Shown in pieces: positions 3,649-53,007 of a stretch of 55,435 bases of DNA. Below the pieces are notes generated by a model. The model made no database searches, was not told where the DNA came from, and was given only the letters and a program-made list of their open reading frames with translations. The stretch lies in IMG/VR virus record IMGVR_UViG_3300025326_000038, positions 1-55,435 of that record. One strand, written 5' to 3'. The position numbers and the translations under genes are program-made. This DNA comes from a virus. Position 1 is the first letter of the stretch; every line of letters begins with the position of its first letter.

Positions 3649-4142
3649 CCCAGCCAGACATCGCCTCCCAGCAGCCCAGGTTGTGCCCCAGGGACGGGTA
3701 CGCGCTGGTCTTGGATGATGTGATCGCCCGGACGGCGATCGACGCGGGCTGGCCCGCGGTGGCGCTCTGGCGGTGCAGAATGGGCCATAGCCACCGCGAC
3801 TGGCCGCCCGAGCAGATGGCCGCCCGCCGGACGGACCCTTCGGTGCGGAAACCGTGTGCTGTGTGCGGCCGACCCCTGCCCAGAAAGCCACGGCTCCACG
3901 GCTCCGGTGGTCGCAAGTATTGCCCCGGTCCCTGCACGGCTTTCGTCAAGCGTGAACGAGGCCTCTGGCTCTGGCATCACGGGCCGCCGTTCGTGATCGA
4001 GGCGCAGCCCTGGTATAAGGGCCCGCTCTACCAGGCGCCGCCGCTGCCCCTGCTCGACCCGCTGGCCGGCCGGATGCCGCGCGACTGGGCGGCGGGGTGG
4101 AGGCGCGTCCACGGCGTCGAGGCACCCGAGATAGCCGCATGA
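3645..4142 (+). CDS. Zinc-finger-like conserved protein, 165 aa, copy A
   Basis: Metal-binding signature of KPCAVCGRPLP followed by a second cysteine pair in KYCPGPC, with CPRDGYALV near the N-terminus. The C-terminus (FVIEAQPWYKGPLY and LDPLAGRMPRDWAAGW) is nearly identical in copy B, while residues about 50-65 vary. It may be a DNA-binding accessory protein. It is the last gene shared by both copies before their cargo diverges: copy A continues with glycan-type enzymes, copy B with a DNA methyltransferase. Confidence 0.65.
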   Translation: MTQPDIASQQPRLCPRDGYALVLDDVIARTAIDAGWPAVALWRCRMGHSHRDWPPEQMAARRTDPSVRKPCAVCGRPLPRKPRLHGSGGRKYCPGPCTAFVKRERGLWLWHHGPPFVIEAQPWYKGPLYQAPPLPLLDPLAGRMPRDWAAGWRRVHGVEAPEIAA

Positions 4143-4801
4143 TCGACGCCCCGATCGGCGCAACGAACCCCGTCCGGTGGCAGCAGGCCGAGCCCGAGCG
4201 CTTCGGCCTCATGTCTGGCTACGCTTGGCGGCACGATCCGCGGCACGTTCTCTTCACCCTGGCCCGCTACAAGTTCGTCGCGAAGATGCTGGCCGGCAAG
4301 GGGCCCATCCTCGAGATCGGATGCGCGGACGGGTTCGGGACGCGGCTGGTCGCGCAAGGGGGAGATCTCGTCGTCGGGATCGATGCGGATCCCGTGATGC
4401 TGCACTCAGCCGAACGGACGCGCGGAACCTTTCGTATCGCCTTCCGCAGGCATGATCTGCTGGACAGTCCCTTCGGTCAATTCAGGGGCGCCTTTGCGAT
4501 CGACGTTCTCGAGCATATCCCGCCGAGCCGCGAGGAGGACTTCATGCGGCACGCCGCGCGATCCCTTCACCTGGCGGGCATCTTGATCCTCGGCACGCCG
4601 TCACGCGAGTCCCAACCGTACGCCTCCGAGCCGAGCCGTGAGGGCCATGTCAACGTCAAGACGCAGGCTGCACTCCGTGCCTTGTGCGAACGCCATTTCA
4701 CGACAGTCTTCCTCCTCGGCATGAACGATGAGGTCGTGCATACCGGCTTCGGGCCGATGTGCCACTACCTCTGGGCGCTCTGCGTGGGACCCCGGGGATG
4801 A
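4139..4801 (+). CDS. Class I SAM-dependent methyltransferase
   Basis: 220 aa with motif I LEIGCADGFG (about 58-67), an acidic motif II end (VVGIDADP) and FAIDVLEHIPPS. This is the arrangement of small-molecule or sugar-type methyltransferases (Methyltransf_11/23-like) rather than DNA MTases, because no DPPY or NPPY is present. It overlaps the GT41 gene by four bases, so the two probably act on the same glycan or glycosylated product. The pair occupies the position held by a DNA methyltransferase in copy B. Substrate unknown. Confidence 0.8.
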   Translation: MIDAPIGATNPVRWQQAEPERFGLMSGYAWRHDPRHVLFTLARYKFVAKMLAGKGPILEIGCADGFGTRLVAQGGDLVVGIDADPVMLHSAERTRGTFRIAFRRHDLLDSPFGQFRGAFAIDVLEHIPPSREEDFMRHAARSLHLAGILILGTPSRESQPYASEPSREGHVNVKTQAALRALCERHFTTVFLLGMNDEVVHTGFGPMCHYLWALCVGPRG

Positions 4802-6267
4802 GCGCGCCTCTGATCGCCTCGACGCGCCGCCCGCAGACGTCCCACGAACGTGCCGTCGCCCTTGCCCTCGCCCGCCGTTGGGAGGACGCCGCGCAGGCGT
4901 TCCGCGCCATCCTCCGGCGCCAGGACACCGGTGAGATCCGCCAGGCGATTGCGACCTGCCTCATGTGCCTGCACCGGACCGAGGAAGCGATCACAGAGTA
5001 TCGGCGGGCCCTCAAGCGCGATCCGACGCTCGTCCGGTCGCGGAACAACCTGATCTTTCTCCTCGATCATCAGCCGTCGACGACGATCGCGGACGCGTGG
5101 CGGGAGCGGCACGCCTGGTGGAAGATCCATGGTGAGCCGCTCGCCCCACAGTGTCTCCCGCACGAGAACCGACCGGACCCTGAACGGCCTCTCCGCGTCG
5201 GCTATGTCTCGGCCGACTTCCGCGGTCACTCAGCGGCCTTCGGGTTCGGGCCCGTGGTGCTGCGCCACACCGACGCGATCGCCGTGTACTGCTACTCGCT
5301 GTCGAACCGGGATGATGCGATGACCGATCTCTTCCGTGCGCGGGCCGCCGGGTGGCGCGATTGCGTGGATTCCACACCCATCGATCTCGTCGACCTGATC
5401 CGTGCCGACGCGATCGACCTGCTCGTCGACCTCTCCGGGTTTTCCGCGGGAAACAGTCTTCAGACCTTCTGCTACAAGCCCGCGCCAGTGCAAATCACAG
5501 CCTGGGGGTACGCCACAGGGACCGGCTGCAAGATCTTCGACGCTTTCTTCGCCGATGCCTACACGGTGCCGCCGCATCTCGAGCGGTACTACACGGAGCC
5601 GGTCATGCGACTGCCCTCCATCGTGCCGTACATGGGCCCGGGGTATGCGCCAGGACCGGCTATCCGTGATCCGGGCGCGCCATTCACGTTCGGCTCGTTC
5701 AGCCGGCCGGAGAAGTGCACGCTGCCGACACTCGCCCTCTGGGCCGATGTCCTCCGCCGCGTGCCCGGATCCCGGCTACTCGTCAAGGACAACGGCTACG
5801 GGCGGGCCGCAACCGCCGAACGCTTCCGCCGGGATCTCGGGCGGCGCGGGATCGATCCGACGCGCGTGGATGTCCGGGGGTTCTCGGAGCACGCCGAGCA
5901 CCTGGGCGCGTATGCCGAGGTGGACTTCGTGCTCGACACGACACCGCACACGGGCGGGATCAGCTCGCTCGAGGCGCTGTGGATGGGCGTGCCGATGGTG
6001 ACACTGCCCGGGGAACGGACCGCCTCGCGACTTTCCGGCTCCTTCCTGGCGACACTCGGGATGCCCGCGCTGATCGGCCATGATGCGAAGGGCTACGTCG
6101 AGATCGCCGTGGCATGGAGCGGGCGGCGGGCCGAGCTCGCGGCACTCCGGAGGACGCTCCGCGAGCGCTTGGTCGCTTCACCCATCAATGCCGGCTACGT
6201 GGTCGCGGTTGAAGCCGCCTATCGCCAACTCTGGCGCGCCTGGTGCGCGCGACAGGCGCCCCGATGA
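4798..6267 (+). CDS. TPR-linked GT41 (SPINDLY/OGT-like) glycosyltransferase
   Basis: 489 aa. An N-terminal helical region with TPR-like pairs (about 15-85: ARRWEDAAQAFRAIL, then HRTEEAITEYRRALKRDP) precedes the GT41 catalytic half. That half shows GYVSADFRGHSAAFGF (about 135), PAPVQITAWGYATGTG (about 230) and PHTGGISSLEALWMGVPMV (about 382), matching the nucleotide-sugar-binding regions of O-GlcNAc transferases. It probably adds a sugar to protein hydroxyls in the cytoplasm. Coupling to the methyltransferase upstream suggests sequential modification, possibly of virion proteins or a host surface protein. Absent from copy B. Confidence 0.85.
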   Translation: MSAPLIASTRRPQTSHERAVALALARRWEDAAQAFRAILRRQDTGEIRQAIATCLMCLHRTEEAITEYRRALKRDPTLVRSRNNLIFLLDHQPSTTIADAWRERHAWWKIHGEPLAPQCLPHENRPDPERPLRVGYVSADFRGHSAAFGFGPVVLRHTDAIAVYCYSLSNRDDAMTDLFRARAAGWRDCVDSTPIDLVDLIRADAIDLLVDLSGFSAGNSLQTFCYKPAPVQITAWGYATGTGCKIFDAFFADAYTVPPHLERYYTEPVMRLPSIVPYMGPGYAPGPAIRDPGAPFTFGSFSRPEKCTLPTLALWADVLRRVPGSRLLVKDNGYGRAATAERFRRDLGRRGIDPTRVDVRGFSEHAEHLGAYAEVDFVLDTTPHTGGISSLEALWMGVPMVTLPGERTASRLSGSFLATLGMPALIGHDAKGYVEIAVAWSGRRAELAALRRTLRERLVASPINAGYVVAVEAAYRQLWRAWCARQAPR

Positions 6268-7114: not shown

Positions 7115-7134
7115 CCGCGTGATCGCTTTCATTC

Positions 7135-7175
7135 TCGCCGCGAAGCGGCTCCGGCAGGCGGTGCTGCCGCTATGA
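7135..7175 (+). pseudogene. Residual 3' end of the DNA methyltransferase gene
   Basis: These 41 bases match the last 13 codons of the copy-B methyltransferase (ending AAKRLRQEVLPL and stop), with about three mismatches. Here the encoded tail is AAKRLRQAVLPL. The rest of that gene is missing, and the sequence before the match is unrelated. The next gene starts in the ATGA at its stop, as in copy B. It is an exchange scar showing that copy A once had the methyltransferase or recombined at this point. Confidence 0.75.
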
Positions 7176-7639
7176 GGAAGCCCCGCGAGCAAGACACGGT
7201 GGCGGCGATCCTCCAGCTCCTCCACGCCCATCGCATTCCAGCATGGCGGATCAACACAGGCGCCACGAAGATCGGCGGACGGTTCATCCGGTTCGGCGCG
7301 GTGGGGATGAGCGACATCCTTGCGCTTCGACCTAGAACAGTTATTGAGCTTTTGCCGCATGACGGGCATGGCGTAAGCCATCCTGCTGGCTGCGGCGGAC
7401 AGTGTAACGGTCCGATGCTCGGGCAGTGGATAAGCATCGAGGTCAAGAGCGCGACAGGAAAGACAACGCCCGCCCAGCAGAGCTTTCTGGATCAGGTGAA
7501 CGCGGCGGGCGGCAGAGCGTTTGTGGCACGGAGCGTGGATGACGTGGCCCGCGAACTCGATTTCCCACCCTCCCCCACCGTCGGCGGCCGGCCGATCTCG
7601 TGGGCGACGGCGCGGCGGATCAGCAAGGATGGGCCATGA
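7172..7639 (+). CDS. VRR-NUC domain nuclease
   Basis: 155 aa. It shows the VRR-NUC pattern: an N-terminal helix (AAILQLLHAHRIPAWRIN), the acidic residue in GMSDILAL (about 46-53), the E-x-K pair in IEVKSATGK (about 89-97) and the following AQQSFLDQVNAAGG helix. The PD-(D/E)XK fold family includes phage structure-specific or Holliday-junction nucleases, so replication or recombination processing is likely. The last 23 residues (VGGRPISWATARRISKDGP at the end) are almost identical to the end of the unrelated RusA-like protein in copy B. Confidence 0.85.
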   Translation: MRKPREQDTVAAILQLLHAHRIPAWRINTGATKIGGRFIRFGAVGMSDILALRPRTVIELLPHDGHGVSHPAGCGGQCNGPMLGQWISIEVKSATGKTTPAQQSFLDQVNAAGGRAFVARSVDDVARELDFPPSPTVGGRPISWATARRISKDGP

Positions 7640-7833
7640 GCGCCTGCCCGAATAATCTGGCGGACGCCACGCGCTACTTCCGGCGGCTGTTCCTCCTACA
7701 CCACCTAGCGGCAGCCGGGACGATCACCGCGACCGCCACGCAACTCGGGACGCAGCGGACGTACATTACCCGCCTCAATCGGCAATTGGACGTCGAAGGC
7801 CCCCGATCTTCGAAGCGCCCGGAACGGACATGA
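7636..7833 (+). CDS. Small HTH protein, 65 aa, copy A
   Basis: Helix-turn-helix of Fis type near residues 30-50 (TATQLGTQRTYITRLNRQL), with a helical N-terminus (NNLADATRYFRRLFLLHHL). It is likely a DNA-binding regulator. The copy-B homologue has the same length and differs at about eleven positions. It starts in an ATGA overlap with the nuclease gene and ends in an ATGA overlap with the next. Confidence 0.75.
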   Translation: MSACPNNLADATRYFRRLFLLHHLAAAGTITATATQLGTQRTYITRLNRQLDVEGPRSSKRPERT

Positions 7834-8116: not shown

Positions 8117-8517
8117 TGGGATTCAAGTCGGGCCGGAAAGTGACGTTCTGCGCGGAGCGGCTCCAGCAGGCCCGCGAGTGCCGAGGATTGAGTCAGCGAC
8201 AACTCGCCGCAAAAGTCGGCGTGCATGTCGAGTTCGTCAAGGAATGGGAGAAGGGCGGCTCGCTGCCGAAGCGCGGCACGTTTTCAGTAGATCAAGTCGC
8301 CTCGCTGGCTCTCGCGCTCGGCTTTCCCGTCTCATTCTTCTACCAAGAGCCACCGCCTCCGCTCGGTCCTACCTCACTGGACTACCACGGCACCAGACTC
8401 GTCTGTGATGCCTGCGACGAGGATGTGGAGTCGTGGCAAGTCGTCGAAGCGAACGGACAAGACTTCCACCCTGAATGCTCACCGCCCCGTGATAGAGCGG
8501 GAGAGACCAAGCCATGA
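8116..8517 (+). CDS. XRE-family HTH regulator with C-terminal Cys motif
   Basis: 133 aa. A typical XRE HTH spans residues 12-70 (ERLQQARECRGLSQRQLAAK, then VEFVKEWEKG). The C-terminus carries a CDACDEDV pair with a later His/Cys (FHPEC), possibly a metal site. It may be a transcriptional regulator of the early operon. It is absent from copy B, where small unrelated genes occupy the site. A GTG three bases upstream is an alternative start. Confidence 0.8.
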   Translation: MGFKSGRKVTFCAERLQQARECRGLSQRQLAAKVGVHVEFVKEWEKGGSLPKRGTFSVDQVASLALALGFPVSFFYQEPPPPLGPTSLDYHGTRLVCDACDEDVESWQVVEANGQDFHPECSPPRDRAGETKP

Positions 8518-8864
8518 CCGCCCTTGATCGGCAGACGGCGCTGGAGCGGCTGTACGTGGCCGCGCTCAACATGTACAAACAGTACCGCGACGCTCCACGG
8601 GATATCGTCATGCAGCTTCGAGATGCTCTCATCGCCGTTGAGGAGGCCGCGCTGGAGGGGGAACTCAAGGAACGAATGGAGTGGTGGCGGGCTCGCTGGG
8701 AGAAGGAATGTGCCGACCTCGCCGACGCCCGCGCGGCGATTCGAGAGGCGGGCATATTGCTCCGCCATGCCTATGGTCCCGTAGAATCTGCGAAGCCGTG
8801 GACCGAATACGATCTATGGCTCGCCCTGCCCGCTGTCGTCGCGGCGTTGGAGGAGAAGAAATGA
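8514..8864 (+). CDS. Hypothetical helical protein, 116 aa
   Basis: Almost entirely alpha-helical and charged (KERMEWWRARWEKECADLADARAAI). Its last 12 residues (LALPAVVAALEEKK) match the end of a different protein in copy B (53,782-54,198), so the 3' ends are related while the 5' parts diverge. Function unknown. Overlaps both neighbours by ATGA. Confidence 0.6.
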   Translation: MTALDRQTALERLYVAALNMYKQYRDAPRDIVMQLRDALIAVEEAALEGELKERMEWWRARWEKECADLADARAAIREAGILLRHAYGPVESAKPWTEYDLWLALPAVVAALEEKK

Positions 8865-8890
8865 TGCTCTACCACGGGGACTGCCGGTGA
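8861..8890 (+). pseudogene. Nine-codon remnant resembling a DNA methyltransferase start
   Basis: The ATGA-coupled micro-ORF reads MMLYHGDCR and stop. M-x-LYHGDC is a very common N-terminus of phage N4/N6-type DNA methyltransferases, and the copy-B methyltransferase here begins similarly (VTLYRGDAL). The simplest reading is that a methyltransferase gene was replaced by the PAPS-reductase-like gene, leaving its first codons. Short match, so only moderate confidence. Confidence 0.35.
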
Positions 8891-9747
8891 TACGCCACGA
8901 TCCACAGGAGGTCCGCGAGAAGCTCGCTAGCCGAGTTGTCGTCGCGTCCATTAGCGGCGGCAAAGATAGTGCGGCGATGAGCCTCTATCTTACCGAGCTT
9001 GGCGTCGAACATCGGCGCGTGTTTGCCGACACCGGATGGGAGCACGCACTGACCTACAAGTATCTGCGCGGTCCGTTGACGGCACACATCGGCGCGATCG
9101 ACGAGGTGCGCGGGCCCCGACCAATGGACGATCTTATCCGCCACAAGAAGATGTTCCCGGCGCGGATCAAGAGATTTTGCACAGAGCATCTCAAGGTGAA
9201 GCCGTTACAAGCATACTTCTTGGCGCTGTCAGCCGAGGATGACTATGTAAACGCTATCGGCATCCGGCGCGGCGAATCGGTGGCGCGGGCGGCCGCCGTC
9301 GAGTGGGAATGGAGCGAGTCGTTCGACTGTGAGGTCTGGCGGCCCCTCGTAGAGTGGACCGAAACAGATGTGATCGAGATCCATCGCCGCCATGGCCTGC
9401 CGCCCAACCCGCTCTATCTCATGGGCGCGCGCCGTGTCGGCTGCTGGCCCTGCATCTTTGCCTCGAAAGCAGAAATCTCGTTGGTCGCAGAGCACGATCC
9501 GGCACGAATCGACACGATTCGCGCACTCGAAGCCGAGACCAACGCCAGTCGCATGGCGACGTTTAGCGCCCGTGGCGAGATGATGCGCTACCCGGCCACG
9601 TTCTTCACATTGCGCCCAGATGGCAAAACCCACGTAGCTGCGCCGATCGACGCGGTGGTGGAGTGGGCCCGTGAGAGCGGTCCGGAGCAGCCGACACTCT
9701 TTGACGAAGGCTGCATGCGGTGGGGCTTGTGCGATACGACGGAATGA
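8887..9747 (+). CDS. PAPS-reductase-family (PP-loop) enzyme
   Basis: 286 aa. The PP-loop SISGGKDSA (residues 22-30) binds the nucleotide phosphates in adenylating enzymes of the PAPS reductase/CysH/DndC group. Later features are FADTGWEHALTYKYL, KRFCTEHLKVKPL, GIRRGES and CWPCIF (a CxxC typical of the phage subgroup). The family activates by adenylation or reduces sulfo-nucleotides. Phage members are suspected of nucleic-acid or nucleotide modification, which is inference here. GTG start in a GTGA overlap. No copy-B partner. Confidence 0.8.
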   Translation: MIRHDPQEVREKLASRVVVASISGGKDSAAMSLYLTELGVEHRRVFADTGWEHALTYKYLRGPLTAHIGAIDEVRGPRPMDDLIRHKKMFPARIKRFCTEHLKVKPLQAYFLALSAEDDYVNAIGIRRGESVARAAAVEWEWSESFDCEVWRPLVEWTETDVIEIHRRHGLPPNPLYLMGARRVGCWPCIFASKAEISLVAEHDPARIDTIRALEAETNASRMATFSARGEMMRYPATFFTLRPDGKTHVAAPIDAVVEWARESGPEQPTLFDEGCMRWGLCDTTE

Positions 9748-9783
9748 GCCGCCGTCGCCGCGGCGGTGAAGGAGGAGGAGTCC

Positions 9784-9840
9784 ATGACCGCAACGGAATT
9801 CTTCGATCCTCAGACGGATAACCCCGCCCATGCCGACTGA
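9784..9840 (+). CDS. Possible leader micro-ORF, 18 aa
   Basis: An ATG after a strong AAGGAGGAGG ribosome site encodes MTATEFFDPQTDNPAHAD. It ends inside the next start region, overlapping that gene by 11 bases. The tail DNPAHAD resembles the end of the zinc peptide in copy B (DDPAHAD), so it may be the residue of a longer gene or a coupling peptide for the gene at 9830. Confidence 0.3.
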   Translation: MTATEFFDPQTDNPAHAD

Positions 9841-10195
9841 CGAGACGCCCAGCGCGGCGGCGGTGGAGAAGGCCGAGAGTCTCTGGACTGATCTTGCCAC
9901 CCATAACCGAGATACGTGGGAAAACGTCACGCTGATTGCCCTCGCCGAGCAGGCGCGGGAGATCGCCCAGCTCACGACGATCCTGACCGACGTGACCGCG
10001 GACGCGAACCTGAGCCATCAGCAGATCACGAGACTGGAAGAGGAGGTCGGGCGGGTGCGGGGGGCGCTGGAGAAAGCGAGGGAAACGATCCAGGCACTCC
10101 ATGGTCAAGAGGCATGGGATATCTACGAACAGCACTCACCCGAAATGAAACAGATTGACGCCGCCCTCCGCGTGACGCCAGAGGCGGGGGGATGA
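9830..10195 (+). CDS. Coiled-coil hypothetical protein, 121 aa
   Basis: Long heptad-rich helix (about residues 40-95: REIAQLTTILTDVTADANL, then LEEEVGRVRGALEKARETI), suggesting an oligomeric coiled coil. Only the first 10 codons (MPTDETPSA) are recognisable in copy B, where the gene is lost. Function unknown. Confidence 0.6.
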   Translation: MPTDETPSAAAVEKAESLWTDLATHNRDTWENVTLIALAEQAREIAQLTTILTDVTADANLSHQQITRLEEEVGRVRGALEKARETIQALHGQEAWDIYEQHSPEMKQIDAALRVTPEAGG

Positions 10196-10308
10196 TGATC
10201 CGCCTCCTCCGCCACGCCGCCCAGACCCCGCTGATGCTCGGCCTGCTCGATTATCCCGCGCCCGGCCAGGTCGTCGCCTGCCCCGTGCTCTTCCTCGACG
10301 GGCGGTAG
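10192..10308 (+). CDS. Micro-protein, 38 aa, copy A
   Basis: The C-terminal half (YPAPGQVVACPVLFLDGR) is identical to that of the 50-aa protein at 54,852-55,004 in copy B. The N-terminal halves are unrelated. This is another example of exchange inside a small gene. ATGA overlap upstream. Function unknown. Confidence 0.5.
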   Translation: MMIRLLRHAAQTPLMLGLLDYPAPGQVVACPVLFLDGR

Positions 10309-10313
10309 TCCTC

Positions 10314-10520
10314 ATGCCAGATGATCCGATCCTCTATCGCTTTCGCGTGACGTTTCTGAACGTGCACAACGGCGTCACGTACGAGGTGCTCGTCTCCACG
10401 CCGATACGGTGGAGAGCGCTCCCCCTTGCGCAGACGGCGCTCAGTGAGCACCTGACGAAGACGGCCGGGCAGGTTCACGACTGGGTGCATTACTCGACGG
10501 CGGAGCTCCCCAAGGCATGA
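10314..10520 (+). CDS. Conserved small protein, 68 aa, copy A
   Basis: Predicted beta-beta-alpha type small domain (VTFLNVHNGVTYEVLVSTP, then SEHLTKTAGQVHDWVHYST). The same length is kept in copy B, with changes concentrated in the first helix. Between it and the helicase gene lies a TTGACA conserved in both copies (10,533 and 55,213). That may be a -35 box for the helicase, although no good -10 is seen. Confidence 0.6.
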   Translation: MPDDPILYRFRVTFLNVHNGVTYEVLVSTPIRWRALPLAQTALSEHLTKTAGQVHDWVHYSTAELPKA

Positions 10521-10578
10521 CCCGAGGCCGACTTGACAACGGGTTCGCTCCCATGATAGCCGCCCTGACGCCTCGCTG

Positions 10579-12051
10579 ATGCCCACGCTCGCCGACTGGC
10601 TCACGTCGCGCATCCCCCCGAACAGCCTTGAGGCCGAGCGCGCGGTCCTGGGCGTCGCCCTCCTCGACCGCGCCGGGCCGGCCGCGCTCTGCCGGACGCT
10701 CCGCGCCGAGGACTTCTACGCCGAGAAGCACCGGCACATCTACGCGGGGATCGCCGCCCTCCTGACCGCCCAGAGCGCCGTGGATCTCCTCACGCTGCCC
10801 GAGACGCTGCGCCAGCAGGGGCACCTCGAGGAGATCGGCGGTCCGGCCTACCTCGGCCAGCTCATCGAGGAAGCGGCCCTCCTGACCGCCATGCCGGACT
10901 ACTGCCGGTTGATCCAGGACAAGGCGGCGCTGCGGGAACTGATCCGGCTCAGTACGGAGACCGTCCAGCGCGCGTATGAGAACGGACAGCCCGCGAGCGA
11001 GATCGCTGGACAGGCGACGACGGCCCTGGCCGCGGTCATGCGGAGCGCCGGGGGGCGACCGAGGCCTGCGATGCGCCCGCTCGCCGACCTCCTCGCCACG
11101 CCACCGGCGCGGCCCGTGTGGCTCGTGGAGTCGCTGATCCTGCAGGGCGCCAACGGCTGGATCGGCGCCGGGGCGAAGGTCGGCAAATCCCTGCTCGCCT
11201 TAGATCTCCTCCTCGCCTGTGCCCTCGGCCAGCCCTGGCTCGATACCTTCGCCGTCGCCCGTCCGCTCACGGTCGCCTTCGTCGAGGAAGAGGATTCCGC
11301 CTGGCGCGTCTACGAGCGGGCCACCCGGCTCCTGGCCGCGCGAGGCGCCCCCATGCCGACCGCGTTCTTTCTCACGGTCCGCACCGGCGTCCAGCTCGAT
11401 CAGGAAGCCTCGCTCGGCCCGCTGCTCGACCTCCTGCGCTCGCGCCCGGTGGATCTCGTGTTCTGGGACGTGTTCAACCGGCTCCACACGCTCGACGAGA
11501 AGCGCCCCGATCAGATGCTCCCGCTCCTCAAGCGCGTGGACCGCCTCCGCGATGAGTACGGGTGCGCCAACCTGATCGCACACCACGCCCGCAAGCCCGG
11601 CGTCTCCGGCCCCGACCTCGCCTCCGGCGGCCAACAGCTCCGGGGGCCGAGCGAGTTCTGGGGCTGGGCCGAGAACAGCCTGTATCTGAAACCGCTCAAA
11701 ACCAAGGGCGCGCTCATCGTCGAACCCGAGAGCAAAGACGCGCTCGTCGCCCCGTTCAAGGTGCACCTCGAGGACCTCGGGCCCGACAGCCGGCGGTGGG
11801 TCTATGACGGGGAGGTCGCGGCCAGGGTCAGTGATGGCGAGGCCACACGGACCCTCATCCTTGATGCCCTGGCACTCAATCCGATGACCGTCGGACAGCT
11901 CGTGGACCACACGAAAAAGACGGATCGGACCCTGAAGAAACATCTCGGCGCGCTCGAAGAAGATGGGGCCGTCGAGGCCACCAAGGAGCCCGGTCGGGCT
12001 GGGCGAAAACTGTGGATGCTGCGCTCTAAGACAGAAGAGCTGCCGTTCTGA
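10579..12051 (+). CDS. Replicative helicase: DnaB N-domain fused to RepA-type ATPase and winged helix
   Basis: 490 aa. Residues about 12-110 match the DnaB N-terminal helical domain (PPNSLEAERAVLGVALLD, AEDFYAEKHRHIYAGI). The motor resembles the RSF1010 RepA/AAA_25 hexameric helicases rather than DnaB: Walker A GAGAKVGKS (about 196-204), Walker B DLVFWDVF (about 292-299), AHHARK sensor-like motif and the GGQQLRGPSEFWGWAEN loop. The C-terminus (about 420-480) is a wHTH (PMTVGQLVDHTKKTDRTLKK). It likely loads at and unwinds the phage origin. The first 133 bases match the truncated copy at the right edge except for one base. Confidence 0.85.
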   Translation: MPTLADWLTSRIPPNSLEAERAVLGVALLDRAGPAALCRTLRAEDFYAEKHRHIYAGIAALLTAQSAVDLLTLPETLRQQGHLEEIGGPAYLGQLIEEAALLTAMPDYCRLIQDKAALRELIRLSTETVQRAYENGQPASEIAGQATTALAAVMRSAGGRPRPAMRPLADLLATPPARPVWLVESLILQGANGWIGAGAKVGKSLLALDLLLACALGQPWLDTFAVARPLTVAFVEEEDSAWRVYERATRLLAARGAPMPTAFFLTVRTGVQLDQEASLGPLLDLLRSRPVDLVFWDVFNRLHTLDEKRPDQMLPLLKRVDRLRDEYGCANLIAHHARKPGVSGPDLASGGQQLRGPSEFWGWAENSLYLKPLKTKGALIVEPESKDALVAPFKVHLEDLGPDSRRWVYDGEVAARVSDGEATRTLILDALALNPMTVGQLVDHTKKTDRTLKKHLGALEEDGAVEATKEPGRAGRKLWMLRSKTEELPF

Positions 12052-12061
12052 GGAGGCCGAC

Positions 12062-12240
12062 GGTATGACGGTGTGCCACGGTGTGAAGTTCATACGGCTT
12101 CATACCTACAAGTATGTGATTGGAAAGACGTATCGGGCGCCAGTCCGTTACCGTCACGGTGTGAAGGTAGAGCCATCACTGCGACGGTGTGAAGGTATGA
12201 AGCGCACCCTAAAGGGGTGCTTCATGCACTTCATACCGTC
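12062..12240 (+). repeat. Iteron-like repeat and hairpin cluster, candidate replication origin or operator array
   Basis: ACGGTGTGAAG occurs at 12,078, 12,156 and 12,184, plus a shortened ACGGTGTG at 12,068. TTCATAC occurs in direct orientation at 12,089, 12,099 and about 12,230, and as the inverse GTATGA at 12,063 and 12,195. A hairpin ATGAAGC-CACCC / GGGTGCTTCAT (one bulged G) spans 12,197-12,225, within outer arms GGTATGAAG and CTTCATACC. The cluster lies right after the helicase and before an HTH gene. It could be an origin with initiator sites or the autoregulatory operator of that HTH gene. Confidence 0.6.
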
Positions 12241-12255
12241 GTGGAGGCGGGAGAC

Positions 12256-12504
12256 GTGAGCGCCCAGCTGAGCAACCTCCCTGGCCTTCAGCAGGCCGCC
12301 TACTGGTTCACCATCGCCGACTGCGCCATGGCCCTGCGCTGTAGCGTGCGCACCGTCCGGCGACACCTGCCATCGGTGCCAAAGGCGGAGCGCGTCAAGG
12401 TCACACGGAAGATCGATGGGGTGCGGACCACGCGCTATTGGCGAGTCTCGCCGGCCGGCCTTCGTGTCTTGGGCCGTCTGACACGGCAGGCGCCGTATCT
12501 CTAG
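12256..12504 (+). CDS. HTH DNA-binding protein, 82 aa
   Basis: GTG start after a GGCGGGAG-like site. An HTH lies near residues 17-40 (FTIADCAMALRCSVRTVRRH), followed by a basic wing-like part (KVTRKIDGVRTTRYWRVSPAGL), suggestive of MerR/Xis-type or replication-initiator-accessory proteins. It sits between the repeat cluster and the packaging genes, so it may bind those repeats and control replication or the late switch. Confidence 0.65.
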   Translation: MSAQLSNLPGLQQAAYWFTIADCAMALRCSVRTVRRHLPSVPKAERVKVTRKIDGVRTTRYWRVSPAGLRVLGRLTRQAPYL

Positions 12505-12935
12505 ACGCGCTGCGTTGCAAAAATCGTCTTTTCGACTGGCCACCTACACCGTGTCACCCTGAGACCTAGCCACCCTAAGGGGTGGCCACTACCGCCTTGC
12601 ATAGGCACGCCGTCGTCAGAGAAAGTGTTGATCGTGAAGGCAAATCTCTGGCCTCTGCGAATGCTGAGTGGCGCGCTGGCGTCGGTAATCTCCCGTACAG
12701 TCCCCGCACGTCGTGATGGAGGAGCGCGAAATGTAGAGAGAAATTCGGCGCAGGATTCTGCGCGAGAACCCGCGGGCCGCTCGCGCGTCGACGTCGAGGC
12801 CCGCCGGTTCATTGCTGGCTCGACTTCCCCAGGCAACACCGCCACACAGACACCACGCGCGGTTTCCGGAAAATCTTTCCACGCAGAGTTGTACGCAGAG
12901 ATTCCACCGCCGCTTCCGGCGCGAGTGAGGACGTG
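12505..12935. other. 431-base stretch without a convincing gene (early/late boundary)
   Basis: Frames on both strands are open for about 100-145 codons, but their products are low-complexity Arg/Pro/Ser sequences with no ribosome site or family resemblance. Visible structure is a GCCACCC/GGGTGGC hairpin (12,569-12,586) and a TGGCCACC...GGTGGCCA inverted repeat (12,537-12,588). The segment separates early from late genes, so a late promoter, packaging site or regulatory RNA could lie here. None is demonstrated. Confidence 0.5.
12569..12586 (+). terminator. Hairpin after the early operon, possible terminator or protein site
   Basis: Seven-base-pair stem GCCACCC/GGGTGGC with a four-base TAAG loop. 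No U-tract follows, so intrinsic termination is doubtful. The core CACCCTAAGGGGTG closely resembles the hairpin CACCCTAAAGGGGTG at 12,205-12,219, which suggests both may be bound by the same factor. Confidence 0.35.
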
Positions 12936-13238
12936 ATGGCGCACGAGTTCAGGAAATCGTCCGCGATGCTCTCGTTCCTCGAGGAGCAGGTCTATCTCCC
13001 GTTTCTACGCAAGGCGTATCAACGCATCGACGAGGGCATGGACGCGGTGAAGGTCAAGGTGTTGCAGTATGAGGGGAACGTCGTGCTCGGTCCCGCGCAG
13101 GTGGATTACACCGAGCGGCGCGAAGCCGCGAAGGAAGCGTTGAAGTTGGCGGACCACTACCCCGATCGCCTCGACGTGAACCTGGGCGGCGACGGGTTGA
13201 CGGTGATCTTGCAGGGCCTGGACGAGAGCAGAGTTTGA
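12936..13238 (+). CDS. Putative terminase small subunit
   Basis: 100 aa. The order helical N-terminus, VKVKVLQYEGNVVLGPAQVD, then TERREAAKEALKLADHYPDR resembles small terminase-type proteins in which a beta segment precedes a R-x-x-A-x-x-x-A-L helix. It lies at the start of the packaging genes, three genes before the large subunit. It would recognise phage DNA and hand it to the large subunit. No HTH is evident, so this rests on weak similarity and position. The alternative is an uncharacterised packaging accessory protein. Confidence 0.45.
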   Translation: MAHEFRKSSAMLSFLEEQVYLPFLRKAYQRIDEGMDAVKVKVLQYEGNVVLGPAQVDYTERREAAKEALKLADHYPDRLDVNLGGDGLTVILQGLDESRV

Positions 13239-13717
13239 GTTTCGTCAAGCGGGGAGATCGTGGACTGCTGACTGAAATTACCTGTCTCGAACGGCTGGTT
13301 ACGCTGGGATACCGCGAGATCTTCAAGCCAGCTCTGTCGGACCGAGGTGTAGACCTCGTCGTGCGGACAGCGACGGGCTACCACGGGGTCCAGGTCAAGA
13401 CAGCGACGCCGAAGAAAACGCGCGGCGGTCGACTCTCATGGACGCTTGACCTCGCCGCCGGCGTCGCTCGCCGCGGGACATTGCGGCACTCGGATCCCGT
13501 AGCGTATTACCGTCAAGCCGGCGTATCGGTGATGGTCGCCCGCGTCGAGGCGGGATTTTACGTGCTGCAGCTCGCCGATTGCGGATCGGTGAATACCTCG
13601 CTAGAGAGCCGGTCGTATTTGTGGGAGGCGTGGGAGCGCGCGCTGGGCGGGCCGCCAGAACTCTCGGACGAAGCCGAAGTTCAGTCTCTTGAACGACAGA
13701 TGAGGTTGCTGAGTTGA
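13235..13717 (+). CDS. PD-(D/E)XK endonuclease-like protein
   Basis: 160 aa from a TTG start in a TTGA overlap. The N-terminal glutamate helix (LLTEITCLERLVTLGY), the acidic SDRGVDLVV and the Q-V-K in HGVQVKTA form the core of the restriction-endonuclease-like fold, as in small PDDEXK_11-type nucleases. Its place between the putative small terminase and the large subunit suggests a role in packaging or DNA maturation, or a free-standing nuclease moron. The glutamate of E-x-K is replaced by Gln, as in some family members. Confidence 0.65.
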   Translation: MSFVKRGDRGLLTEITCLERLVTLGYREIFKPALSDRGVDLVVRTATGYHGVQVKTATPKKTRGGRLSWTLDLAAGVARRGTLRHSDPVAYYRQAGVSVMVARVEAGFYVLQLADCGSVNTSLESRSYLWEAWERALGGPPELSDEAEVQSLERQMRLLS

Positions 13718-13747
13718 AGACCGCCACGCAGGGCACAGGAGGCCACG

Positions 13748-14098
13748 ATGAACGAGCGACCGATCGACTGGCTGGTGCTGGCGAACAAGTACGGGATCTG
13801 GTTGGAGCAGGGGCGGAAGCGCCTGGTGGAGTGGCGGGAAGCGAACCGGACCGCGGGCGACGACGAGCAGGGGTGCCGGGCGCGGTGGGACGCGCGGGAC
13901 GCGATGCGGACGTGGTGCGCGGCGTTGAAGCGGGAGCTGGATCTCGACGTGGGCGAGGGCGTCCGCGCGCGGGTGAACTTCGCGGCGACGGGGAGTCCGC
14001 TGGGGACGAACGAGCTCGGGGAGCACGAGGCACGGCTCGCCGCGCTCGACCGGCTGATTGGGCAGTTACTCAGCCAGGCGGGGCCGCTGACGGGGTAG
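13748..14098 (+). CDS. Hypothetical protein preceding large terminase, 116 aa
   Basis: An AGGAGG site lies about five bases upstream of the ATG. The protein is helical and Trp/Arg-rich (DWLVLANKYGIWLEQGRKRL, then RARWDARDAMRTWCAALKRE), with a Gly-rich linker and a final helix. Position makes it a second candidate for the small terminase or a head-assembly accessory protein. No family recognised. Confidence 0.6.
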   Translation: MNERPIDWLVLANKYGIWLEQGRKRLVEWREANRTAGDDEQGCRARWDARDAMRTWCAALKRELDLDVGEGVRARVNFAATGSPLGTNELGEHEARLAALDRLIGQLLSQAGPLTG

Positions 14099-14100
14099 TC

Positions 14101-15729
14101 GTGCTCGACCACGATCCGTGGTTCGACACGCCGCCGGTGACGACGGCGCCCACGATCGAGGGACCGGCGCCGGCGGCCGCGCCGGCGCGCTTCGAAGAGG
14201 TCGTGCCGCCGACGGTGGCGGAAGCGCTCCAAGGCCCGGAGCGGATCAAGGGGCTGTGGGGTCCGGTGCGCACGGGCAAGTCGCGCGGGGTCATGCGCTA
14301 CGTCCTCGCGCATTGCCGGAAGTACGCGGCGCAATTCCTCGGCGAGACGATCCGGTGGCTCTTCGTGCGCGATACCTACGAGTCCTTGCGCGCAACCAAT
14401 CTCAAGACGCTCCTCGAGCTGCCGCCGCTCGGGCGCTGGGGGCGGTGGAACGAGCAGAAGAAGACCTTTACCGTCGCGCTGCCGACAGGGCAGCGGGCGG
14501 AGTTGCTCTTCATGGGGCTCGATGACCCGAAGGACGTGTCGAAGCTCCAGTCGCTCGATCTCTCCGGCTTCGTGATCTGCGAGCCGGCAGGCGGCCTCGA
14601 TCCCGACACGGAGCGCGTCGGCCTGGGGATCCCGGAGGACGTGTACTTGATGCTCTGCTCGCGCCTCTCCGTCCCGATTGGCCTGGAGCGCGTGGTCGGC
14701 ATTCTCGAAGGCAACACGCCATCGGCGGGGCACTGGACGGCGCGCATGATCCGCGATGAAGCGTCGGCCGAAGTCCTCTCGGTCTTTTCGGCGGCCGGGT
14801 TGCCGACGGGCGAGGTGCGGCGCCGTGCGATGCCCGGCCGCACGGCCTCGGTCCTCTCGGCGGACGTGCCGGCCTGGGAAGCGCCCATTCTCCACTCGCG
14901 GCCCGGGTACTTCGACGAGCTGGAGCAGTTGTACCGGACCTCGGGTAAGGGGACGGCCTACATCCGGCGCTACCTTCGCGGCGAATGGCTGCCGACGCTC
15001 ACGGGTGCCTTTACGCGCAACCAGGTGCCCACGATCGCCCGCGACGACTGCCCGCCGTTCGACGCGATCGTGGCGACGCTCGATCCCTCGACGGGTGTGG
15101 CCAAGGGCGATCGCTCGGCGCTCGCCGTCTGCGGGATCACGCAGAGCGGCTTTGCGTACCTGCTCGACCTCCACGTCGGGCGTTTTGAATACGCTGAGCT
15201 GATCGAGCGGATCTTCGCCGTCCAGATACGCTGGGCGCCGGGGGTCGTCGGCATCGAGGCGGTCGGCTTCCAGGTCTGGTTGGGCGCCATTCTCGCGGAG
15301 AAGAGCGCCGAGCGGGCGGTGCGCGTGCCGGTCCAGGAACTCAAGCGCGACTCCAAGCAATCGAAAGAGCTGCGCATCGAGGCGACGCTCGGCGTCCGGC
15401 TCAGTGAGCGGCGGCTCGTGGTGGTCGAGGGCTGCCCGAACCTCGACGTGCTCTGGGCGGAGCTCGAGAGTTTCGGGCAGTCCGGGGGCCACGACGACGT
15501 GCTGGACGCCCTCGCGGACCTCGACCAAATCGTCGGGCTCGCGTTCCCCGCGGCCGACGTCGGGATCCCCGACGGCGGAGGGCCTCGCGGCGGGCGTGAG
15601 TCCGGCGTTCGTGCGCCGCTCTTCCCGCAGCTCGCGGCGGTGGAGTCGGCTGCCGCGCGCGGGGAGCCGATCGACATCGATCGCCGCTTCTGGTCGCGGC
15701 AGCCGGCGGGATTCTGGCGTGGGCGATAG
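14101..15729 (+). CDS. terL: Terminase large subunit
   Basis: 542 aa from GTG (longer upstream frames overlap the previous gene). ATPase: Walker A GPVRTGKS (about 54-62) and Walker-B-like SGFVICEPAG (about 154-163, Glu supplied by CEP). The nuclease half has the conserved acidic triad pattern: ATLDPSTG, GIEAVGFQ and HDDVLDALA near the C-terminus. It would pump DNA into proheads and cut concatemers. Adjacent portal and head genes confirm the packaging module. Confidence 0.9.
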   Translation: MLDHDPWFDTPPVTTAPTIEGPAPAAAPARFEEVVPPTVAEALQGPERIKGLWGPVRTGKSRGVMRYVLAHCRKYAAQFLGETIRWLFVRDTYESLRATNLKTLLELPPLGRWGRWNEQKKTFTVALPTGQRAELLFMGLDDPKDVSKLQSLDLSGFVICEPAGGLDPDTERVGLGIPEDVYLMLCSRLSVPIGLERVVGILEGNTPSAGHWTARMIRDEASAEVLSVFSAAGLPTGEVRRRAMPGRTASVLSADVPAWEAPILHSRPGYFDELEQLYRTSGKGTAYIRRYLRGEWLPTLTGAFTRNQVPTIARDDCPPFDAIVATLDPSTGVAKGDRSALAVCGITQSGFAYLLDLHVGRFEYAELIERIFAVQIRWAPGVVGIEAVGFQVWLGAILAEKSAERAVRVPVQELKRDSKQSKELRIEATLGVRLSERRLVVVEGCPNLDVLWAELESFGQSGGHDDVLDALADLDQIVGLAFPAADVGIPDGGGPRGGRESGVRAPLFPQLAAVESAAARGEPIDIDRRFWSRQPAGFWRGR

Positions 15730-16048
15730 CCGGCCTCCCTTGGGCCCCCGTCTCGGTCGCGTGCATGCCTTGCGCAACCGCGGCGCTGTCTACACGGAAG
15801 GGCTCCGGACCTCGCTCCAGGCGGGTTTGCTCGGCGCGGGCGTGGCGAAGGGCGCGGGGTTCACCGATACGGCCTGGGCAACCTACTTCGGGCTGGCGAT
15901 CCTGCTTGGGATCGAGCTGGCCAAGGTGCTCCTCGGCTGGCTCGATTATCGCTTCCACGTGATCCAGACGGAGCAGCGGATTGCGGCGGAAGCGAGTCCC
16001 GTCACGATGCGGATGGTCCACGCGCTCGAAGCATTGGTGCCGAAATGA
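15719..16048 (+). CDS. Small membrane-type protein between terminase and portal, 109 aa
   Basis: The GTG start overlaps the terminase end by 11 bases. Hydrophobic segments are centred on residues 40-60 (ATYFGLAILLGIELAKVLLG) with a polar helical tail (DYRFHVIQTEQRIAAEA). It could be a membrane-associated assembly protein or a holin-like protein in an unusual place. Function unknown. Confidence 0.55.
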   Translation: MGDSRPPLGPRLGRVHALRNRGAVYTEGLRTSLQAGLLGAGVAKGAGFTDTAWATYFGLAILLGIELAKVLLGWLDYRFHVIQTEQRIAAEASPVTMRMVHALEALVPK

Positions 16049-17625
16049 AGTACGGCGTCCGCGCCCCGAAGACGAAGCCGGTCGTGCGGGCCGCCGAAGC
16101 GGTGGGGGCGTTCGCGGGCGGCCTGGTGGACAAAGACGATTACCTTTTCCGGCGCCTCTCCACGGGCCAATCCGGCGCCTCGACGCGACGCGATCTCTCC
16201 CCGATGGCGCAGGACCGGATGCTCGAGCTGGTGTTTTTCCTCTGGGAGTCGAATGCGATCGCGCAGTGGATCATCGAGACGACGATCGACTTCACCGTGG
16301 GTGAGGGGGTAACCATCGAGCCGCTCAACGACGACGTCGGCGCGGTGCTCACCGCCTTCGAGGATGATCCGGTCAATCAGCTGCTGGCGCGTCTCGAGGG
16401 CTTCGCGCGGGACTTCGGCCTCTACGGCGAGCTCTGCCTGCCCGCCTTCGTGAATCAGGTCGACGGCCACGTGCGCCTGGGCTATCTCGACCCGCTCGAG
16501 ATCAAGGAAGTCCTGACCGATCCCGACAACGCGCTCGTACAGACGGCCGTGGTGCGCAAACCGCCGAGCGGGGATCGTGGTCCCGGGGAGCTCTACAAGA
16601 TCATCCGCGGGGAAGCAGATCGGGCGAATCCTGCCTATGGGCAACTGGTCGGCGCGGAACCCGGTGAGACCGAGCCCCGCACGGGGCGCGTGTACAAGGG
16701 CCAGTGTTTCCTCTTCCAGACCAATCGCGTCAGTAACGCCCGCCGGGGTCGGTCGGATCTGCTCTCGCTGATCGACTGGGTCGACGGGTACGATGCGTTT
16801 CTCTATGACTCCATGCAGGCCGCGCAGCAGTTCAATTCGTATATCTGGGACGTGACGCTCGACGGCGCTGATGAAGCCACACTCAAAAAGTGGCTCGCCG
16901 CGAATCAGACCGTCAAGCGCGGCATGATCCGGGCCCATAACGAAAAGGTGAAGTGGGCAGAGCTCTCGCCGGATCTGAAAGCGCAGGAAAAAGATACGTT
17001 CCTCCATTTCCTTCGTGGGCAGATCCTCGGCTCGAAGAGCTTCCCGGAGCACTGGTATGGGCAGGGGTCGGATGTCAACTTCGCCTCGGCGAAGGAAATG
17101 GCGGCCCCGCCGGGCAAGCGGTTGGGACGCCGGCAGCAGGAGATCAAGCGGATTGTCCAGACGCTCTGCCGCTTTCAGATCCATTCTGCGCAGCGTGCCG
17201 GCACCCTGAAAGCCACGGTGTTGAGCGGCTCGACAGTCTCTGCCGACGGCGCAAGCGCCGCGCTGGCAGTGCCAGCAGATCAGGCCTACCGGATCGTGCT
17301 CCCAGAGATCTCGACGAAGGACACCGCACAGACCGTTGCCGCCGCGGCGTCGCTGAGTGCGGCCCTGACGCAAGCCGTCGCGCAGGGCTGGCTCCGGAAC
17401 GAAACCGCGGGGAAGATCTTCGCCCATCTCGTGAGCCAACTCGGCATCGAGATCGACGCTGCGGCGGAACTCCAGCCGGGCGCGGGCCCGCGCGGCGCGG
17501 CGCTCACAGACTATTCCCCGGCGAATCTCCAGCGGCTCCTGGCCCAGCTCCAGCGCGCCGGGAACGGCAACGGCGACAACATGAACATGCCGAAGATGCC
17601 GGCGCCGGGTGGGGCCGTGGCATGA
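16045..17625 (+). CDS. Portal protein
   Basis: 526 aa. Features expected for portals: an N-terminal helical domain (FFLWESNAIAQWIIETTIDF), a mixed clip/stem region, and the conserved late block FRGQILGSKSFPEHWYGQG with NFASAKEMAAPP (the metazoan-like NFAS/SYAS...E motif of siphovirus portals). It forms the dodecameric vertex for DNA entry and tail attachment. Ends with a Gly/Asn/Met-rich tail. Overlaps its neighbours by ATGA. Confidence 0.85.
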   Translation: MKYGVRAPKTKPVVRAAEAVGAFAGGLVDKDDYLFRRLSTGQSGASTRRDLSPMAQDRMLELVFFLWESNAIAQWIIETTIDFTVGEGVTIEPLNDDVGAVLTAFEDDPVNQLLARLEGFARDFGLYGELCLPAFVNQVDGHVRLGYLDPLEIKEVLTDPDNALVQTAVVRKPPSGDRGPGELYKIIRGEADRANPAYGQLVGAEPGETEPRTGRVYKGQCFLFQTNRVSNARRGRSDLLSLIDWVDGYDAFLYDSMQAAQQFNSYIWDVTLDGADEATLKKWLAANQTVKRGMIRAHNEKVKWAELSPDLKAQEKDTFLHFLRGQILGSKSFPEHWYGQGSDVNFASAKEMAAPPGKRLGRRQQEIKRIVQTLCRFQIHSAQRAGTLKATVLSGSTVSADGASAALAVPADQAYRIVLPEISTKDTAQTVAAAASLSAALTQAVAQGWLRNETAGKIFAHLVSQLGIEIDAAAELQPGAGPRGAALTDYSPANLQRLLAQLQRAGNGNGDNMNMPKMPAPGGAVA

Positions 17626-18518
17626 TCGGCCGCGCCCGCTTCGCCGACGTGCCGGTCGAGCGTTTCACAGCGCAGCTCGCCGAGATCCTCCTTCGCCTCG
17701 ATGCGCTCCCCACCGCTGCCGTCCAAGCCATGCTAAGCGATCTGGAAACCGCACGGCAGCAGGTCGTCCGCGAAATTCTTGTGATGGGCGCCGCTGCGAG
17801 TCCGCGTGAGCTCATCGAACTCCAGGCGCGCATCAGCGATGTCATGTACCGCTTCGCGGACAAGTACGGCCTCATGCTCTCGCCGATCCAGGGGGCCGTG
17901 GCGCAACTCGGCAGTGCGCTAGCCGCCGAGCCCTTGGTCGCCAGCGGCCTCGCCCTCTGGGTGCCGCAGATCTCGCGGCGGCAGCTCGAAGTCGCGCGGA
18001 CCTTTCAAGCGCTCCTGATCTCGAATCTCGCCGACGACGCGACGAACCAGATCAGTCAGGATCTCGGGCTGGCGATCCTCCGGGGGCAGAGTGTCTACGA
18101 AGCCTCGCAGGCGGTCGCCGGATCGCTCACGGGCACGGCGACCTTCGGCTCCATCGCCGCGCGCGCGGAAGCGATCACCCGGACAGAACTCGGCCGGATT
18201 CAGAGCGTGGCCACGCAGGGGAGCCTCCGAGATCTCCAGCAGCAGGTGCCGGATCTCCAGAAGCAATGGATGCACTCCGGGAATGCAGGGCCGTATCGCC
18301 GCACTGGGCACATCGTGGCCAACGGGCAGGTGCGTGACGTCGACGAGACGTTTCAAGTGGCCGAGATTGCGGGCGGGGAGCAGGAAGCGCTGCTCTATCC
18401 CCGCGATCCCTCGGCGAGTCCCCGGAACACGATCAACTGCGGGTGTGTCTCCGTTCCCTTCCGGGCCGCATGGGCGGCTGACCTCGAAGCGTCGCGTCAA
18501 GAGATCGCGGCGGCATAG
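17622..18518 (+). CDS. Phage head morphogenesis protein (Mu gpF / SPP1 gp7-like)
   Basis: 298 aa. A helical N-terminus is followed by a minor-head domain with AEAITRTELGRIQSVATQG and the C-terminal signature RRTGHIVANGQVR...PRNTINCGCVSVPF, typical of Mu F-like domains. It is a minor capsid component near the portal. A low-complexity middle is absent. Stop and next gene are separated by nine bases with AGGAG. Confidence 0.85.
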   Translation: MIGRARFADVPVERFTAQLAEILLRLDALPTAAVQAMLSDLETARQQVVREILVMGAAASPRELIELQARISDVMYRFADKYGLMLSPIQGAVAQLGSALAAEPLVASGLALWVPQISRRQLEVARTFQALLISNLADDATNQISQDLGLAILRGQSVYEASQAVAGSLTGTATFGSIAARAEAITRTELGRIQSVATQGSLRDLQQQVPDLQKQWMHSGNAGPYRRTGHIVANGQVRDVDETFQVAEIAGGEQEALLYPRDPSASPRNTINCGCVSVPFRAAWAADLEASRQEIAAA

Positions 18519-18526
18519 GAGCGCGC

Positions 18527-21001: not shown

Positions 21002-21011
21002 GAGAGAAGAT

Positions 21012-21047
21012 GAGCGGAGCGGCCGAGCGCATCCGGTCGCTCCGCTC
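21012..21047 (+). terminator. Stem-loop after the capsid gene
   Basis: A ten-base-pair perfect stem GAGCGGAGCG/CGCTCCGCTC with a 16-base loop lies between the capsid stop and the next ATG. No T-run follows. It may attenuate transcription or protect the capsid mRNA end. Confidence 0.5.
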
Positions 21048-21053
21048 CTCACC

Positions 21054-22148
21054 ATGACCATCGTCATCGTCGGCGCGATGTTGGCGCCCTGGTTATTCCT
21101 GCTCACGGCGCGCCGCGGTTGGCACGTCTGGGCGCGCAACGCCTTTGTCCGCGGCGCCGCCGTCATGGGCGCCGGCGCCGCGGTCAGTGTGGAGCCCTTC
21201 ATGGCCCCGCTGGCTCTCTCCGTCCTGCTGCGCTGGACGGATGTCAGTCGTCTCGTGCCCGTGATGATCTGGGCGGCGATCTTCGGTGTCTGGTTCCTCG
21301 GCCTCGCCCTGGGGCCTTCAGGGCTCGTTGCAGCGGCCTGGCTGACCCTTGCTCTCGTGAATGTGGGCTTCGTGGTTCTCCAGTGTCTCGGGCAGCGGGT
21401 CGCGGTCCCGGCCTGGCTGGCAGACGGCGTTGACAAGATGGGCGAGGGGGTCGGCACGTTCGGCCATCGGACGATGTGCGCGGGCTTCCTGGCCCTGGTG
21501 CTGCCCCTCTGCTGGCTCATCCCAGCCCCTTGGCGGTGGCTCCTGGTAGCGCTTCTGGGACTCGGCCTGTGGTTGACCTCCTCCTGGTTGGCCTGGCTGG
21601 CCACGCTGGGGGCCCTTCCCGCGCTGATCCCAGCCCTCTGGCTACCTTTCCTTGGTTTGGCGCTGCTCGCTGTCCTGGGGGGCTGTGCGGCCCTCTGGGC
21701 ATGGTCTCGGGCCCCCGGTTGGTATCACCTCCTGATGCGGCCCATCGAGCGCTGGACTCTTCGGGGGGCCTCGCTGGACAGCGTCGTCCAGCGCCTGGAG
21801 GTCTGGCGGGCCTACGGCCGCGTGTGGCGGCGCTGGCCGAACTGGTTGCTTGGCCGCGGGGATGGGTCGTCCCACGAGGAAGCCGTCCAGGTGCAAGCGG
21901 GGGTACAGCATCGGATGGTCGGCTATCCCCACAACGAGATCGTGAGCCTCGCCTACGAACACGGGCTCTTCGGCCTCGCGGCCCTCGGGCTCTTCGCGTG
22001 GCGAGTGGTGCCGGCGCTCCACGCCGGCGATCCCTGGAGCGCGATGGTGATTGCTGGGGGCGTCCTCATGCTCGGGATGCACACCGCGCACATCGCACCA
22101 CTCGGCGGAACCTGGTGGCTGGCCGCGGCGATGGTGGCGGGGCGATGA
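21054..22148 (+). CDS. O-antigen ligase/polymerase-like membrane protein
   Basis: 364 aa with about nine or ten hydrophobic helices (for example PVMIWAAIFGVWFLGLALG and WRWLLVALLGLGLWLT). A large polar loop contains the Wzy/WaaL hallmark PHNEIVSLAYEHGLFGL, with RTM and Arg-rich parts before it. Such proteins transfer or polymerise lipid-linked glycans on the periplasmic face of the inner membrane. Its place inside the head module, after a stem-loop, marks it as a moron. It may alter LPS to exclude other phages. Activity is inferred from family. Confidence 0.75.
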   Translation: MTIVIVGAMLAPWLFLLTARRGWHVWARNAFVRGAAVMGAGAAVSVEPFMAPLALSVLLRWTDVSRLVPVMIWAAIFGVWFLGLALGPSGLVAAAWLTLALVNVGFVVLQCLGQRVAVPAWLADGVDKMGEGVGTFGHRTMCAGFLALVLPLCWLIPAPWRWLLVALLGLGLWLTSSWLAWLATLGALPALIPALWLPFLGLALLAVLGGCAALWAWSRAPGWYHLLMRPIERWTLRGASLDSVVQRLEVWRAYGRVWRRWPNWLLGRGDGSSHEEAVQVQAGVQHRMVGYPHNEIVSLAYEHGLFGLAALGLFAWRVVPALHAGDPWSAMVIAGGVLMLGMHTAHIAPLGGTWWLAAAMVAGR

Positions 22149-22327
22149 AGCTGACGCCAGGTAGAGTGCTTGGCATTCTTCACGGCTCTGCTTGGTTCCT
22201 GGTTCTCGTGTACCTGGCGAGGCTGGAGGGCTGGCGACTCTGGGTAACATTTGCGGCGCTGATAGTTTTCGGTGCATCTGTAGACTGTGTAGCTCACAGG
22301 TACGTCGGGCTACGGAACGGCCGATGA
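22145..22327 (+). CDS. Small membrane protein, 60 aa
   Basis: Two hydrophobic stretches (LGILHGSAWFLVLVYL and LWVTFAALIVFGASV) suggest a hairpin membrane peptide. It begins in the ATGA at the end of the ligase-like gene, so it is likely co-translated and may assist it. Base composition is slightly less GC-rich than its neighbours. No family recognised. Confidence 0.5.
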   Translation: MKLTPGRVLGILHGSAWFLVLVYLARLEGWRLWVTFAALIVFGASVDCVAHRYVGLRNGR

Positions 22328-24254: not shown

Positions 24255-24272
24255 CGGGACACGGAGGGCATC

Positions 24273-52813: not shown

Positions 52814-53007
52814 CCGTCTGCCCGAATAATCTGTCGGACGCCACGCGCTATTTCCGGCGCCTATTCCTCATGCGCCATCTGGCGGCGGCCAAGACGATCA
52901 CCGCGACCGCCACGCAACTCGGGACGCAGCGCTCCTACATAAGCCGACTCAACCGGCAACTGGGCGTCGAAGGCCCCCGATCTTCGAAGCGCCCAAAACG
53001 GACATGA
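52810..53007 (+). CDS. Small HTH protein, 65 aa, copy B
   Basis: Partner of the gene at 7636. HTH TATQLGTQRSYISRLNRQL is preserved and the start is GTG. Neighbouring order (micro-protein, then membrane peptide) is the same in both copies, which anchors the alignment of the two early regions. Confidence 0.75.
   Translation: MTVCPNNLSDATRYFRRLFLMRHLAAAKTITATATQLGTQRSYISRLNRQLGVEGPRSSKRPKRT

Follow-up and report, generated by a model that had tools for sequence, protein, structure and literature searches.

A VRR-NUC nuclease and a predicted RusA-like resolvase at one phage gene slot share a 23-codon 3' end

Two nuclease genes from sibling phages, a VRR-NUC nuclease gene and a RusA-like resolvase gene, have cores without detectable similarity to each other and end in the same translated stretch of DNA. 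Both lie in the window, by which we mean the whole stretch of DNA analysed, a virus record in IMG/VR that is 55,435 bases long and is classified as linear or lacking end repeats. We consider it probable that this arrangement came about by ordinary phage gene shuffling, in which the VRR-NUC gene replaced the core of a RusA gene just 5' of a boundary block that was kept.

The VRR-NUC open reading frame (ORF) occupies 7172-7639 (plus strand) in what we call region A, and the RusA-like ORF 52104-52529 (plus strand) in region B. The initial annotation had described them as unrelated nucleases with a common 23-residue tail, and that description holds, since both ORFs are real and carry the tail in frame, closed by their own stop codons. 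The tail, PSPTVGG(RP/HP)ISWATARRIS(K/E)DGP, is identical at 21 of 23 residues and reads PSPTVGGRPISWATARRISKDGP in the VRR-NUC ORF (7568-7636) and PSPTVGGHPISWATARRISEDGP in the RusA-like ORF (52458-52526). The nucleases share it because the underlying DNA is shared: a 74-bp block, 7568-7641 in A and 52458-52531 in B (both plus strand), is 93.2% identical (blastn E = 1e-24), and the same search of A against B found no similarity between the nuclease cores 5' of the block. In A this downstream boundary block holds the 23-codon tail, the stop, AAGGA and the ATG of the next gene; in B it holds the tail, GAGGA and the GTG of the next gene. AAGGA and GAGGA are Shine-Dalgarno-like and lie 6 nt 5' of the next start; that start shares bases with the nuclease stop, as ATGA in A and GTGA in B. 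Such an NTGA overlap ends 37 of the 64 selected plus-strand ORFs.

The first 10.7 kb and the last 9.4 kb of the window are homologous, at about 72-86% identity over the longer aligned stretches, and the spacing between the homologous regions A and B is 44.7-46 kb. In an 18.4-kb contig (G001), B (50591-55435, 100%) runs directly into window positions 10244-24270 (99.1%), and in another (G002) A adjoins this backbone (99.985%). A and B therefore share one place in sibling phages and stand in an allelic relation to one backbone. The best reading of these joins is that A and B are allelic versions of one slot combined in one contig, and most likely the window follows one circular map round, starting in allele A and ending in allele B. 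The initial annotation had treated them as two copies; its view that the nucleases replace each other stands, while two copies in one genome do not agree with G001. The presence of both regions in one 55-kb contig could suggest that both nucleases belong to one phage genome, as a diverged duplication of about 9 kb, and act together. We hold this to be highly improbable: B joins in G001 the very backbone that follows A in the window, the spacing of about 44.7-46 kb is plausible as a single genome length, and one terminase gene and one portal gene were recognised among the ORFs scanned, both in the backbone. A tandem duplication in one genome was likewise rejected on the direct join of B to the backbone in G001. 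In region A a 60-bp unit is also repeated perfectly in tandem, three times over, at 1798-1977. B has no counterpart of the stretch of about 200 bp around these copies, since positions 1781-1980 are passed over in the A/B alignment.

The gene at 7172-7639 encodes a protein of 155 amino acids (P0001) whose core ends near residue 128. Its assignment to the VRR-NUC nucleases, made in the initial annotation, was borne out by Pfam, PHROG and fold comparison, and also by its residues. P0001 matches Pfam VRR_NUC (PF08774) barely above the cut-off (23.9 bits against 23.8, E=4.5e-5), and its PHROG matches are to endonuclease and Holliday-junction-resolvase families. D48, E90, K92 and Q102, corresponding to a PD-(D/E)XK-type D, ExK and Q, are invariant in 26 aligned sequences. 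The predicted structure matches the VRR_NUC fold 4qbn with a Foldseek probability of 0.99 and a TM of 0.71 by target, though with E = 0.07. Stand-alone VRR-NUC proteins are dimers that cleave four-way junctions (PMC4103454). Like the stand-alone phage proteins of that study, P0001 is small and single-domain with the D and ExK residues; unlike them, it has a C-terminal tail, and its cleavage of junctions is something that we infer.

The evidence that the product of 52104-52529 (P0002, 141 amino acids, core end near residue 118) is a RusA-like resolvase is good but indirect, and comes from relatives in three contigs (L009, L010 and L020) that are 48-67% identical to it. P0002 itself matched no Pfam, NCBIfam or RusA PHROG model, and Pfam RusA (PF05866) matched neither the window nor the records of the three relatives. 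Three of the four members of the alignment do match the PHROG RusA-like resolvase families (34 / 1682; best E=3e-7), P0002 being the one that does not, and it is because of these relatives that we accept P0002 as probably RusA-like, as the initial annotation had proposed. D69-N72, K78, D82 and D92, a DxDN cluster followed by a lysine and downstream aspartates, are invariant in the four sequences, and we take them to be the catalytic residues of RusA. The structural model, built from the four-sequence alignment, has a pLDDT of 51 and gave no meaningful fold match. RusA-like enzymes are Holliday junction resolvases (PMC3485210), and both P0001 and P0002 would be expected to act on such junctions.

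A second block bounds the slot on its 5' side. The upstream boundary block of A (7134-7175, plus strand) comprises the last 13 codons of a methyltransferase gene and the ATGA overlap with the nuclease, and is 92.9% identical to 52066-52107 (plus strand) in B, where it forms the 3' end of a DNA methyltransferase (N6/N4) gene (50353-52107, plus strand; PF01555 E=1.5e-43). The body of that gene is intact in B and absent from A. The methyltransferase scar noticed initially is real, and the cassette between the upstream and downstream boundary blocks differs by exchange between A and B. Residues of about 232-339 of the B methyltransferase match a PHROG HNH endonuclease family and look like an inserted homing-type endonuclease. 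Downstream of the nuclease in A, the gene overlapping its stop (7636-7833, plus strand, 65 amino acids) had no Pfam or PHROG match and is 83% identical to 52810-53007. B has in addition an NrdR-like zinc-ribbon gene (52526-52813, plus strand; PF22811 E=8.5e-11), which is found in B only, between the tail and the homologue of gene 7636, with NTGA overlaps on both sides. Further upstream in A, 4759-6267 encodes a TPR protein with a family 41 glycosyltransferase domain, which has a close relative (82%) in contig L116.

Judged by the relatives of both nucleases, the most likely origin of the tail is the 3' end of the RusA gene. Among 79 VRR-NUC relatives the tail was found in none, and these proteins end at a median of 7 residues past the match; the tail as the native VRR-NUC end was rejected on this ground. 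The RusA gene of L009, the relative 67% identical to P0002, ends in VPSSALVPISTDVP, a match to the tail once a loss of about 24 bases between two GATC motifs is assumed. Its alignment with the tail scores above 99.9% of codon shuffles (p = 0.001), and at 33.9 tops every score from a null set of 131 real gene ends, though by a thin margin over the best of them (33.7). The slot in L009 is homologous: it has A-type genes upstream (82%, 68%) and, downstream, the membrane-protein gene that also follows the slot in the window (51-56%), with RusA between them. Downstream of its RusA gene, at 3675-3987, L009 carries near-identical repeats of about 24 bp (GGGGAGCAGCCACGTCGAGGCGT-like) that are open in several frames. 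The end of the L010 RusA did not align with the tail beyond chance (p = 0.49), and L010 was rejected as a second source of it. That L010 and L020 have RusA genes with other, short ends would suit the alternative that the tail came from the VRR-NUC gene, or from a third gene since lost, and was acquired by RusA. We consider this unlikely, given the 79 VRR-NUC relatives without the tail and the recognisable shortened tail on the L009 RusA. The simplest order, drawn mainly from this one relative, would make RusA the earlier occupant of the slot and VRR-NUC the newcomer that took the RusA 3' end.

Most other short blocks common to A and B also lie at gene ends or starts, together with ribosome-binding and start sequences. 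One, containing GGAGGAG, forms the 3' end of ORF 8514-8864 in A (8817-8864, plus strand) and of ORF 53605-54198 in B (54151-54198), at 89.6% identity; the C-terminal halves of these two ORFs resemble each other, and two weak A/B matches, 8627-8678 and 8727-8751, lie inside ORF 8514-8864. The 3' end of 53605-54198 has a further, untranslated copy at 9749-9781 (plus strand; 87.9% identical to 54164-54196). This copy comes after the TGA of an unrelated PAPS-reductase gene and gives AAGGAGGAGG to the start at 9784, so the DNA has been kept there without the peptide. The PAPS-reductase-family gene (8887-9747) is found in A only, with copies of the gene-end block directly before (8817-8864) and after it (9749-9781). 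A fourth block, at 9816-9865 (plus strand), spans the start of gene 9830 and is 94% identical to 54320-54369, in which the frame of gene 9830 stops after 13 codons.

Searches of IMG/VR with exact and degenerate patterns of the tail peptide gave matches confined to the sibling-phage lineage of A and B; the other matches to the looser pattern were in unrelated contexts, mostly in frames broken by stops. A scan of 84,980 genomes gave nine matches in varied frames and unrelated contexts, which resemble chance. The tail as the mark of a wider family was rejected, as the viral and genome collections scanned held just unrelated or chance matches beyond the A/B lineage. For other nucleases at this locus, which the initial annotation had proposed as a test, the outcome is mixed, the full tail being absent and the RusA of L009 having the shortened form.

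The initial annotation had further suggested that the tail might serve to bind a partner or to localise the protein. A functional C-terminal peptide, docking to a shared partner (for instance the replisome, SSB or terminase) or serving localisation, and selected whichever nuclease is present, would explain why two unrelated and likely analogous enzymes carry it in frame with 21 of 23 residues identical, and in structural models of both the last part of the tail forms a helix (VRR-NUC 144-153, RusA-like 130-139), at low confidence and weak at best. Against this stand its confinement to this phage lineage in the collections scanned and the short ends of the RusA relatives, which are 13-14 residues in two other contigs and about 10 in L020. 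The four codon changes in the tail between A and B comprise 2 synonymous substitutions over 19.8 sites and 3 non-synonymous over 49.2; they suggest no clear constraint and are too few for deciding. The tail block (93% identity) and the 459 bp 3' of it (91%) are conserved to much the same degree, and the neighbouring block at 9749-9781 is kept untranslated. On these grounds we do not uphold the suggestion, and regard a selected functional peptide as quite unlikely. The more specific idea of a transferable docking peptide, which would link any junction resolvase in the slot to one constant partner of the phage and be maintained by selection as the enzymes change, we regard as very improbable.

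Under the preferred reading, that of gene shuffling, an ancestral RusA-like resolvase gene would have ended in the tail sequence. Recombination in one sibling lineage would then have brought in the whole core of a VRR-NUC gene. Its entry point would be where the methyltransferase gene ends and the nuclease gene begins (7134-7175), and its exit point, in frame, within the last 24 or so codons of the RusA gene (7568-7641). Because this exit would lie in frame within the RusA 3' end, the VRR-NUC protein would have taken on the C-terminal tail of RusA. Retention of the block may reflect two things: the Shine-Dalgarno sequence and overlapping start that its last codons provide for the next gene, and the fact that exchange between siblings occurs at shared blocks. 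As a counterpoint, the kept stretch of 69 codon bases exceeds what a Shine-Dalgarno signal needs. The direction of replacement, the part played by homologous or homeologous recombination, and translational coupling as the reason for retention are what we infer from this pattern. The initial proposal that analogous junction nucleases were exchanged inside the 3' end while the tail stayed with the locus thus survives, apart from the role that it gave to the peptide.

Similar exchanges are known. In mycobacteriophage Island3, genes 67 and 68 have about 60 bp of 3' sequence and 18 C-terminal residues in common, attributed to recombination at a short boundary sequence (PMC3029335). As in A and B, the comparison of Island3 67/68 with Brujita in that study concerns different genes with a common 3' end. 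However, the two Island3 genes are neighbours in a single genome and gp68 is without homologues (PMC3029335), whereas the A/B pair are alleles of one slot and belong to recognisable nuclease families. For Rap and RusA in lambdoid phages, a conserved gene arrangement suggests equivalent functions, as stated in PMC3485210. Different resolvases are there regarded as functional equivalents from gene arrangement, as at the A/B slot, which differs in pairing a VRR-NUC with a RusA-like enzyme and in their common translated 3' end. As with the boundary sequences of mosaic phages summarised in PMC3029335, short junction sequences flank the exchanged genes, and the A/B slot shows the mark of this mosaicism, a short junction block flanking non-homologous genes. 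Unlike those sequences, the A/B block extends 23 codons into the gene as well as covering the ribosome-binding sequence of the next one. Exchange by homologous recombination at the block is suggested by this pattern, and the Red proteins of lambda recombine diverged sequences efficiently (PMC2327257).

Taken together, the A/B swap fits these precedents closely and adds a new, well-resolved case to a kind already known. It gives a clean view of how phage swaps are stitched, with the break falling inside the 3' end of a gene, before the next start signal, and leaving the foreign enzyme with a short part of the one that it replaces. Tails inherited in this way can lead domain annotation astray, and a peptide can look conserved when conservation is confined to the DNA. 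A further gain is one more pair of enzymes, VRR-NUC and RusA-like, that take each other's place at a single slot.
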